Position numbers and translations under genes: made by a program. The notes under the pieces were generated by a model, which did no database searches, was not told the origin of the DNA, and was given only the letters and a program-made list of their open reading frames with translations. A DNA stretch of 64,000 nucleotides from Centipeda infelix ATCC 43532 (GTDB taxonomy: Bacteria > Bacillota > Negativicutes > Selenomonadales > Selenomonadaceae), in assembly GCF_000234095.1 (NCBI RefSeq), contig NZ_JH376797.1:260493-324492 (forward strand), given 5' to 3'. Position 1 is the first letter of the stretch, and each line of letters begins with the position of its first letter. Shown piece by piece: positions 58,125-61,916 of the stretch.

Positions 58125-58135
58125 GGATTTCATAG

Positions 58136-58201
58136 ATGGAAAACAACAACATAATCGACATCCCCAGTCTCCAGTGGTACCCGGGGCGAATCTGGAAATA
58201 G
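58136..58201 (+). other. Short open frame, possibly a gene remnant at an element boundary
   Basis: A 21-codon frame 11 bases after mrr. The segment IPSLQWYPG resembles the start of the ribosome-assembly GTPase RbgA/YlqF (consensus IQWYPGHMAKA), after which similarity ends. It could be the disrupted 5' end of such a gene at an integration junction, or chance. No good ribosome site. Confidence 0.25.
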
Positions 58202-59946: not shown

Positions 59947-60015
59947 TGGCGTAGATGTGATTAGCCTCACATTTATTCTTTGCCGTCCGGAGGTGGTGCT
60001 CCGGGCGGTCTTTTA
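59947..60015 (+). ncRNA. Putative small RNA between int and the Fst-like locus
   Basis: About 70 bases from the promoter at 59912 to a strong terminator (GCCGTCCGGAG / CTCCGGGCGGT at 59982-60009, then CTTTT). No open frame. It contains GATTAGCCTC (59959-59968), the inverse of GAGGCTAATC at 59922-59931, and its AGCCTC could pair with the GAGGCT of the int ribosome site. A regulator of int is a hypothesis; a decayed transcription unit is the alternative. From 60016 to 60084 there is only an AT-rich TTTTCCCT/AGGGAAAA inverted repeat. Confidence 0.4.
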
Positions 60016-60084
60016 TGTGGGAAGAAAACACAATATTTTCCCTCTTGATTGTTCAATTAGGGAAAAAGAGCCGATTTTTCCCAG

Positions 60085-60113
60085 TTGGTTGATGTTCTGA
60101 ACTATGCTATACT
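60085..60113 (+). promoter_or_regulatory. Promoter of the Fst-like peptide gene
   Basis: TTGGTT (60085-60090), a 17-base spacer and TATACT (60108-60113), about 47 bases before the ATG at 60160. Confidence 0.55.
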
Positions 60114-60159
60114 GGATGCGTTGCCGCCCCTACACATGGCAATGGGAGGGGGTGTGCGT

Positions 60160-60243
60160 ATGAGTGTTATCGCGTTTCTTCTCTCCATCATGGCGGGTGT
60201 AATCGCCAACTACATCTGCAAATGGCTCGATGAGAGAGACTGA
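60160..60243 (+). CDS. 27-residue Fst-like membrane peptide (putative type I toxin)
   Basis: Starts MSVIAFLLSIMAGVIANY and ends with the charged tail ICKWLDERD. A single hydrophobic span followed by a W-L/D-E-R-rich tail is the layout of the Fst/Ldr family (pAD1 Fst ends in a similar LDEED-type tail). Ribosome site GGGAGGGGG is 7 bases upstream, and CCCCT at 60127-60131 can pair with AGGGG at 60147-60151 to hide it, as is common in type I toxin mRNAs. Codons 2-6 (60163-60177) carry a 15-base sequence repeated at 60333-60347 within the opposing RNA gene. Function is inferred from this organisation; toxicity is not shown. Confidence 0.6.
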   Translation: MSVIAFLLSIMAGVIANYICKWLDERD

Positions 60244-60284
60244 CGGCGACGAGCCTAGGTGTTAGTCCCTGCCTGCACAATGGG

Positions 60285-60349
60285 AACAGAAAAGCCCCCG
60301 AGCTGCTATCTCGGGGGCTTTTCGTGTGCTTAAGTGCTATCGCGTTTGC
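60285..60349 (-). ncRNA. Putative antitoxin RNA of the Fst-like locus
   Basis: A minus-strand promoter TTGCAT-18-TATACT (60386-60357) predicts a start near 60349. The RNA begins GGCAAACGCGATAGCAC and ends at the shared hairpin 60290-60322. The bases complementary to 60333-60347 would pair with AGTGTTATCGCGTTT at 60163-60177 in the peptide mRNA over 15 positions (14 Watson-Crick and one G-U), directly after the start codon. Convergent RNAs with a shared terminator and direct repeats at both ends are exactly the pAD1 par layout. Confidence 0.55.
60290..60322. terminator. Bidirectional terminator of the Fst-like locus
   Basis: Perfect 13-bp inverted repeat: AAAAGCCCCCGAG (60290-60302) / CTCGGGGGCTTTT (60310-60322), with A-run and T-run built in, so it terminates both the peptide mRNA and the opposing small RNA. 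Confidence 0.88.
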
Positions 60350-60387
60350 CATAGATAGTATAACACAAGTCCCCAATGAGATGCAAG

Positions 60388-61059
60388 CTATGAAAATGCT
60401 TCAATACGTCTGCGTTCCTCTGCCTGTAGTTCCTCGGCGAATGCAGCGAATCCCTGCAAATCCTCCGTATTGAGATAGTTGATGTACTCCTTGCGCCGCT
60501 CCACGGGAATCACAATCGGCGTCATGCCGGCGAGGAAACAGCTGTACACCATCAGCGCACGGCCGACCCGTCCGTTGCCGTCCGGGAACGGATGAATATG
60601 CTCGAATGCGATGTGCTGGCGGCAGATGGCGAGCACCTTATCTGAATCGGATGCAGCGGCATCCATCTGCGCAGCGAGGTTGTCGATCCAGTCCGTCAGT
60701 GCCGACGGAACGAGGTAGGGCGGCGTAGGTGTGAAGTCTGCGCCAATGATCATATTCGGGCGCTGCTTGAACTGTCCGGGTACGCTCTCGATCGCATCCT
60801 TGCAGAGGATTGCGTGCACCTCGCGGATCAGAGAGAGGGAGATCGGTGTGCCAGATGTCGACTGCTCGACAAGAAACGTCATGAACGCCTTATAGTTCAG
60901 CACCTCGTTCAGCTCGCGCATATCCATCGCACGCGGGACATAGCCATCAATGAGCACGCTCTTTGTCTCGCCCTGCGTCAGCGTGTTGCCCTCGATCGCG
61001 GTGGAGTGATGCGCCATCCGCACCATGAGATCACTGAGATATTCGGGTGAGTATGTCAT
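60388..61059 (-). CDS. Fic-domain protein, class II (N-terminal inhibitory helix)
   Basis: Probable AMP-transferase (or related nucleotidyl modification) of 223 residues. The catalytic motif HPFPDGNGRVGRAL fits H-P-F-x-D-G-N-G-R-x-x-R. Near the N-terminus STAIEGNTL fits the inhibitory [S/T]-x-x-x-E-[G/N], and its place before the Fic core makes this class II, normally self-inhibited. ATG 61059 with AAAGGAGG 7 bases upstream is chosen over an upstream frame to 61134. It is the last gene of a leftward unit (repressor, ImmA-like peptidase, two small unknowns, Fic). The target is unknown; phage or ICE accessory toxin/defence roles are possible. Confidence 0.9.
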   Translation of the reverse strand: MTYSPEYLSDLMVRMAHHSTAIEGNTLTQGETKSVLIDGYVPRAMDMRELNEVLNYKAFMTFLVEQSTSGTPISLSLIREVHAILCKDAIESVPGQFKQRPNMIIGADFTPTPPYLVPSALTDWIDNLAAQMDAAASDSDKVLAICRQHIAFEHIHPFPDGNGRVGRALMVYSCFLAGMTPIVIPVERRKEYINYLNTEDLQGFAAFAEELQAEERRRIEAFS

Positions 61060-61130
61060 CGTGAGCCTCCTTTCTAGCCCTCCGAGAGGAAGCGGTACTT
61101 GTAACATTTGGCAAAAACGTCGCCTTGCAC

Positions 61131-61916
61131 TCAATGAACCTGCACTCTACGGAAAACAAGAATAGGGATAATTCTGTAGACAGAGGATTGAAACAGCTGA
61201 TTCAAAGAATCGGACATCACATCGATGGCATCATCTAATGAGGAAATATCCGTCGAAGAAGAAGCCCTGTCAGCTGTGTCCAAAATTCCAAGTGTAAACC
61301 ATTCGCCAGGGATTTGTGTTCCATATGTACGATTAATATCGCTTTGCGCAATGGAAAGCCCGCCGCTTTTCAATGTACCTGTTACAGAAAAACCATCTAT
61401 TTCAAGGGTGAGGGTTATTGTGTTTGGGATTTGTGCAAGAATATCTGTGAATATACGCATCATAGATTTAGCCTCCCTTGTCTGGGGGACGCCAAATGTA
61501 GCAGCGTTCTTTGTGAAGATTGGCATCATAGACTTGATGGACTCGATGTCCTGAATTTTGATACGGGATTGAAGTAAAACCAGCCGCCCTGTACAGCTTG
61601 TTGGGAGTTGACTTAACGGGTGAATACCCAAGTCATTAAGTAATTGTATGATCTGGCTGTGGTATGGATCGTATTCCTCAGCAGCTTTTTCGTTCGATTC
61701 GTTGCGTTTTCCCCACGTTCCCTGTACGACTTCGATAGAGCCTTTCGTAGACAAAGAAGAACCCTCGGAAGTGCCTATTGTTTTTGTCACACTTCTGAGG
61801 GTTCCGTTTCGGATTTGGGATATAAAGGAATCGGTACGTTCCTTGTCGATATAAAGAAAATCAATCAAGGTTTGGGCATCAGAAAAGTTAGTTTCAACGG
61901 CTTCTTTTGTCCCCAT
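61131..61916 (-). CDS. Uncharacterised protein, DUF6414-like
   Basis: 261 residues. TLIDFLYIDKERTDSFISQI near the N-terminus followed by RNGTLRSVTKTIGTSEGSSL resembles element-borne proteins of the DUF6414 type (Y-L-D-x-x-x-x-x-S-x-x-x-Q start). That assignment is from memory and tentative. The middle has CTGRLVLLQSRIKIQDIESI. No signal peptide or membrane span. Its ATG (GAGGAGGTAAATAA upstream) lies inside the preceding 53-codon gene, so the pair is translationally coupled. More AT-rich than the core genes to the left. Confidence 0.6.
   Translation of the reverse strand: MGTKEAVETNFSDAQTLIDFLYIDKERTDSFISQIRNGTLRSVTKTIGTSEGSSLSTKGSIEVVQGTWGKRNESNEKAAEEYDPYHSQIIQLLNDLGIHPLSQLPTSCTGRLVLLQSRIKIQDIESIKSMMPIFTKNAATFGVPQTREAKSMMRIFTDILAQIPNTITLTLEIDGFSVTGTLKSGGLSIAQSDINRTYGTQIPGEWFTLGILDTADRASSSTDISSLDDAIDVMSDSLNQLFQSSVYRIIPILVFRRVQVH

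Follow-up and report, generated by a model that had tools for sequence, protein, structure and literature searches.

A cassette of about 370 bp, in the window (the whole 64,000-nt stretch of DNA that was analysed, from a Selenomonadaceae-type Negativicute), was identified as a candidate par-type type I toxin-antitoxin (TA) module on a prophage. We consider it probable, at roughly 85%, that an antisense-silenced membrane toxin encoded there stabilises the prophage, with toxicity and maintenance as the parts that we infer. The par-type organisation is strongly supported by sequence analysis, namely by the anatomy of the locus, by repeats and a 5′ helix that co-vary between homologues, by a strand-specific signature of pairing and by the limits of a discrete cassette. 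The first-pass annotation had proposed a par/Fst-like module, and the promoters, the terminator, the locus-specific repeats and the 5′-end helix were all found, in the same layout as in a pAD1-type locus. The module is called par-type by its organisation; its peptide is not called by the curated Fst/Ldr models.

Cassette anatomy and prophage context

The features of the cassette are listed below, with transcript ends set from promoter-like sites.

60017–60388, no strand: whole cassette, ~370 bp, absent from a sister prophage (alignment with congener G203)
60105–60113, + strand: extended −10 of the putative toxin mRNA promoter, TGCTATACT (sequence; peak in homologues)
60120–60126, + strand: predicted mRNA 5′ end, upstream helix with CGGCGAC just past the stop codon (fold)
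60120–60330, + strand: predicted toxin mRNA, ~207 nt (fold z −2.66 versus shuffles)
60160–60243, + strand: membrane-peptide ORF of 27 codons, CKWLD family, translated as MSVIAFLLSIMAGVIANYICKWLDERD
60163–60177, + strand: direct repeat copy 1, AGTGTTATCGCGTTT, codons 2–6, putative antisense target (repeat search and homologues)
60285–60350, − strand: predicted antisense RNA, ~65 nt (fold z −5.05 versus shuffles)
60289–60302 / 60310–60323, both strands: bidirectional terminator, 14 perfect bp with a 7-nt loop, stem ends A- and T-rich
60333–60347, − strand: direct repeat copy 2, AGTGCTATCGCGTTT, carried by the predicted antisense RNA (repeat search and homologues)
60357–60386, − strand: putative antitoxin promoter, extended −10 TGTTATACT (+ strand 60357–60365) and weak −35 TTGCAT (60381–60386)

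Convergent promoters are predicted from −10 boxes that hold their positions on both strands across homologues, with weak −35 boxes. In 66 of 104 homologues a toxin −10 box fell in a peak 100–120 nt ahead of the Cys codon, and the reverse boxes peaked 120–160 nt after it; this reverse peak, together with the extended −10 in the window, bears out the minus-strand promoter of the first-pass annotation. A generic sigma-70 promoter and terminator scan listed neither module promoter, only sites near the integrase, and was uninformative here. The terminator had been described as a perfect 13-bp bidirectional one; it is perfect and bidirectional, with 14 bp measured. Terminator-like stems were present in 98 of the 104 homologues versus 47 in a control stretch. 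The excess of the antisense RNA fold over shuffles came mainly from this terminator. His_leader, ctRNA_p42d and ohsC were matched in Rfam only below threshold; these matches, which come mainly from the terminator hairpin, were set aside.

The 5′-end helix recurs in the family, with a perfect run of at least 6 in 71% of 92 loci versus 15% of cross-locus pairs. The sequestered ribosome site that had been proposed holds for the predicted fold of the window, where the Shine-Dalgarno (SD) unpaired probability was 0.05, but finds no support at the family level: SD accessibility over 52 loci was no lower than with shuffled leaders and gave no signal beyond composition.

A prophage of ~40 kb has its left end in the right end of the window, and the cassette is located there, between the integrase and the repressor region. 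The integrated element of the first-pass annotation is this prophage: a repeated att sequence is found at ~58135–58188 of the window and at C1:359064–359116 of the host's own contig, and DNA polymerase, terminase, portal, tape measure and tail genes lie between the two copies. The att sequence is presumably the start of an rbgA-like GTPase gene. A short N-terminal fragment of this gene is left at the left prophage end; the complete gene begins at the other end, and the two starts are 83% similar. The host, which had looked like a Negativicute, is of Selenomonadaceae type: in a genome from the same family, one locus matches a Selenomonas ruminis (Selenomonadaceae) sequence with 100% identity over 1,627 bp.

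A sister prophage in the congener G203, with an integrase 90% identical in DNA, matches the window as far as 60016 and again from 60389, the two blocks being 2 nt apart; it lacks exactly this ~372-bp segment. Homology also ends at 60387, the outer edge of the putative antitoxin promoter, in other copies (92% identity in the congener G189, and 78% and 77% in the own-genome C2 and C3 paralogues). As in the window, an integrase and a repressor/ImmA pair lie close to the G189 and C2 copies, while in G202 the cassette copy and a Fic fragment adjoin the same host methyltransferase gene, where no integrase was found.

Some other observations concern the flanks. A Fic-domain gene (60388–61134, − strand) directly follows the module, and the Fic gene fragment that adjoins the G202 copy has 51 codons. 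In the sister prophage (G203:C116, L143/L144) the integrase and the Fic protein are 97% and 95% identical in amino acids, whereas the large terminase is only 26% identical; thus, the two prophages are mosaic relatives. Immediately upstream of the module, at 60003–60086, is a partly palindromic repeat of ~80 bp. Further copies are found ahead of the C2 paralogue and, on their own, at G000:C1:481500, G177:C1:646698 and G162:C18:192850; this is possibly a small dispersed repeat element.

Locus-specific repeats and strand-specific pairing

The first-pass annotation had pointed to a 15-base direct repeat, and both copies are present, AGTGTTATCGCGTTT at 60163–60177 and AGTGCTATCGCGTTT at 60333–60347, with one difference between them and a weak extension to 24 nt at 79%. 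When the 302-nt stretch was shuffled 300 times with its dinucleotides preserved, this score was reached twice. As the repeat at this single locus is only modestly beyond chance, the case rests on its relatives, namely 5 paralogues and ~140 homologous loci.

The host's own genome (2.41 Mb in 29 contigs) holds five CKWLD-type peptides including the window copy. In all five the first codons recur ~170 nt downstream, in a sequence that is specific to the locus and matches within it: AGTGTTATCGCGTTT/AGTGCTATCGCGTTT, ATGCTAATCTCGTTT/ATGCTAACCTCGTTT, ATGTTACTATCGTTT/ATGTCACTATCGTTT, CACATCATTCAT twice and ATATTCATGTCATT twice. Further relatives were collected from GTDB genomes, where at least 475 were confirmed with one motif and 80 were kept, and from 201 genomes of the same class, of which 57 were positive (20 of 82 genera).

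It had been predicted that the repeats should co-vary between homologues, and they do. A repeat score of at least 10 was reached by 86% of 108 usable loci, versus 1.9% when the halves were taken from different loci; the mean score was 12.0 within loci and 6.9 across them. An independent set of 32 loci on viral contigs gave 94% versus 2.4%.

The mismatches between copies were also informative. An RNA duplex tolerates a change that leaves U in the mRNA against G in the antisense RNA, or G against U, and not the reverse changes. Among 118 distinct repeats, copy-to-copy transitions were G-U-compatible in 43 cases and opposite in 8 (p = 7e-7, or p = 1e-4 after weighting for base composition). Each distinct repeat entered this test only once, although some dependence between related loci remains. 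Three of the five paralogues have a single mismatch, in each case a tolerated one. The one in the window corresponds to a U-G pair, in agreement with the single G-U pair foreseen in the proposed duplex. This bias points to pairing between RNAs, with the antisense RNA read from the minus strand, and argues against a DNA operator.

Duplexes were also predicted, with transcript ends placed as above. The cognate antisense RNA was the best of 57 partners for 46 mRNAs and among the top three for 55. The cognate duplex of the window was predicted to be the strongest among the five paralogues (−36.6 versus −22.3 kcal/mol for the next), in a 5 × 5 table in which the row for one paralogue (L004) is rough because its start was set too far downstream. 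The two paralogues predicted to be closest to each other in this table are L004 and L005.

The peptide and its relation to known type I systems

As claimed beforehand, the 27-codon ORF at 60160–60243 encodes a membrane peptide. MSVIAFLLSIMAGVIANYICKWLDERD combines a hydrophobic span, of mean hydropathy +2.26, with a charged tail of −2.29. The signature of the Fst/Ldr superfamily is a hydrophobic helix, a conserved tryptophan and a charged C-terminus (PMC7472228), and all three are present. W22 is invariant among the 25 CKWLD-family members. The (P/D/S/T)XXXG motif of most Fst/Ldr members occurs in the membrane span as S9-I-M-A-G13; in the family S9 is invariant and position 13 is G or S. Judged by sequence, the peptide fits the Fst/Ldr signature although curated models do not call it: the NCBIfam Fst model gave 12.3 bits (cut-off 26), the Pfam Ldr model 16 bits (cut-off 27) and the Clostridioides difficile type I toxin model NF047374 20.9 bits (cut-off 60). 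The best Fst E-value among the 25 members was 1.2e-4, ~22 bits by conversion and still below the cut-off of 26. No match to the window peptide above a curated cut-off was found in the family libraries, PHROGs gave only weak matches to groups of unknown function, and a search of solved structures with the peptide found no relative. Likewise, the CKWLD family profile did not match pAD1 Fst above shuffles, and a literature text search on the peptide motif gave nothing relevant.

The likeness to pAD1 par lies in the organisation. We applied the same repeat search to a pAD1-type par locus from an annotated Enterococcus faecalis plasmid as reference. It returned a 14-nt repeat over Fst codons 3–7 and a 10-nt one immediately ahead of the start, a terminator of 15 bp, a reverse −10 similar in sequence to that of the window, and a leader GCAGCT complementary to AGCTGC just past the stop, features that belong to the conserved par layout in the review of Weaver (PMC7472228). 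Like pAD1 par, with its fst mRNA (RNA I) and antisense RNA II, the window has putative convergent promoters, a bidirectional terminator common to both RNAs, a direct repeat on the first codons and again past the terminator, a predicted helix from the 5′ end to a segment after the stop, and the same type of reverse extended −10. On the other hand, the repeat part just before the start codon is weak in the window, no YUNR U-turn motif was seen by eye in the 7-nt terminator loop CUGCUAU, and the peptide has a tryptophan where pAD1 Fst has a valine.

The link of CKWLD peptides to Fst runs via the Streptococcus SpF66 RNA. The SpF66 Rfam model RF02442 (gathering score 42) aligns over the whole window mRNA with 31.8 bits, reaches 41.2 bits on the C3 paralogue and is exceeded in its gathering score by two loci of G071, from the same class. 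Its consensus, when translated, gives a peptide ending in CKWLDGKE, which scores 34.6 bits with the CKWLD family profile; SpF66 shares with the window both the CKWLD peptide and the full-length mRNA alignment. F66 is the pneumococcal srn502/Spd_sr109 (PMC12323649), and PMC6212727, on the basis of Fozo 2010, assigns the D39V loci around F66 to the Fst family of type I modules. From the coordinates we read F66 as one of the two annotated D39V Fst-family loci.

Two further systems are comparable. Fst-Sm/srSm of Streptococcus mutans, in which toxicity is neutralised by the RNA, has convergent RNAs of ~200 and ~70 nt crossing direct repeats at the translation start, as is predicted for the window, but its peptide motif APUU(A/V)GUU is absent from the window peptide (PMC3543317). 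The C. difficile RCd/NF047374 modules, which promote prophage maintenance, resemble the window in their small membrane peptide, antisense RNA and location towards prophage ends, and differ in that NF047374 matches the window peptide only weakly, as given above; the paper on them nowhere uses the term "direct repeat" (PMC7699646).

Proposed mechanism, alternatives and spread

From this organisation we infer transcription, RNA stabilities, toxicity and a maintenance role as follows. The ~207-nt mRNA, with its 5′ end held in a helix, would encode a small single-span membrane peptide, and the ~65-nt antisense RNA would start at the convergent promoter past the common terminator. Pairing of the two RNAs, both in the terminator hairpin and in the codon 2–6 repeat, would block translation initiation. 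Upon loss of the prophage, the less stable antisense RNA would disappear first, the peptide would be made and growth would stop. Such arrest would stabilise the prophage, by analogy with the prophage modules of C. difficile (PMC7699646).

Perhaps the antisense control is as proposed and the peptide is not an addiction toxin kept for maintenance but a small membrane protein for stress response, phage exclusion or abortive infection. We regard this as unlikely, yet as the most serious alternative. Two of the five paralogues lie between core genes, with holA/pflA-like and bioY/rpoC-like neighbours; thus, element maintenance cannot be the role of these two copies, and the peptide may serve other ends. 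According to PMC7472228, no function is known for chromosomal Fst homologues, and the position between the integrase and the repressor region would also suit such a protein. Against this, the closest characterised systems with the same RNA layout encode toxins (PMC7472228, PMC3543317), and plasmids and viral contigs commonly carry members of the family.

A second alternative is that the direct repeats are operators in the DNA, bound by a protein such as the phage repressor; operators can take the form of paired direct repeats close to promoters, and a repressor gene lies nearby. This is very improbable here, as the repeat sequence is shared within each copy but not between the copies of one genome, and as the G-U-compatible bias on one strand is not predicted by a DNA operator. 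It is slightly less improbable, though still hardly to be expected, that the window copy is a decaying, non-functional remnant. Its one repeat mismatch would fit decay, as would the congener copies that adjoin a broken integrase or a fragment of a Fic gene, and the sister prophage that does without the cassette; this absence also counts against prophage stabilisation by an antisense-silenced toxin. However, the ORF, both −10 boxes, the 14-bp terminator and the 5′ helix are intact in the window, the mismatch still gives a U-G pair, and none of the other four paralogues has a cognate duplex predicted to be as strong.

Modules of this class are already known. The present case adds their occurrence in the Negativicutes, an idea of how large the unannotated CKWLD branch is, strand-specific evidence of pairing and a natural presence/absence pair. 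Negativicutes are Firmicutes with an outer membrane. A literature search for type I modules in this group gave nothing relevant, and the Fst/Ldr review does not mention the group (PMC7472228), to which par-type control would now extend. The Streptococcus "sRNA" family is tied to a large set of unannotated peptide genes, and the sister prophages with and without the cassette form a ready-made natural experiment. With five copies in one genome, the number of related antisense pairs that coexist without crosstalk becomes directly testable. The G-U asymmetry test gives strand-specific antisense evidence from sequence only, and can be reused on other candidate type I modules.

CKWLD peptides with matching repeats were also found on Streptococcus pneumoniae pSpnP1, on E. 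faecalis and Ligilactobacillus plasmids and in an inovirus, with no annotated gene under any of the 30 plasmid matches listed. We lean towards regarding CKWLD as a large, almost unannotated par-type branch of ~300–370-bp cassettes, spread over Clostridia, Negativicutes, Erysipelotrichia, Bacilli, plasmids and phages. Each repeat may serve as a private recognition tag; thus, five or more copies could coexist in one genome without cross-silencing.

Some neighbours and outlying members are also worth recording. A ParE-like type II toxin gene (L172 5421–5684, + strand; Pfam 23.2 bits, barely above the cut-off of 23) lies beside the paralogue at C3:128092, and a DUF3644 protein with a restriction-endonuclease-like domain (L171 6199–7269, + strand), possibly a defence gene, is encoded between the C2 paralogue and an integrase. 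The inovirus, a filamentous phage of 8.6 kb (PQ006166, L125), carries the module with a perfect 15-nt repeat, and the only annotation over it in the record is a hypothetical gene on the opposite strand. In the S. pseudintermedius plasmid match, KKID replaces CKWLD.
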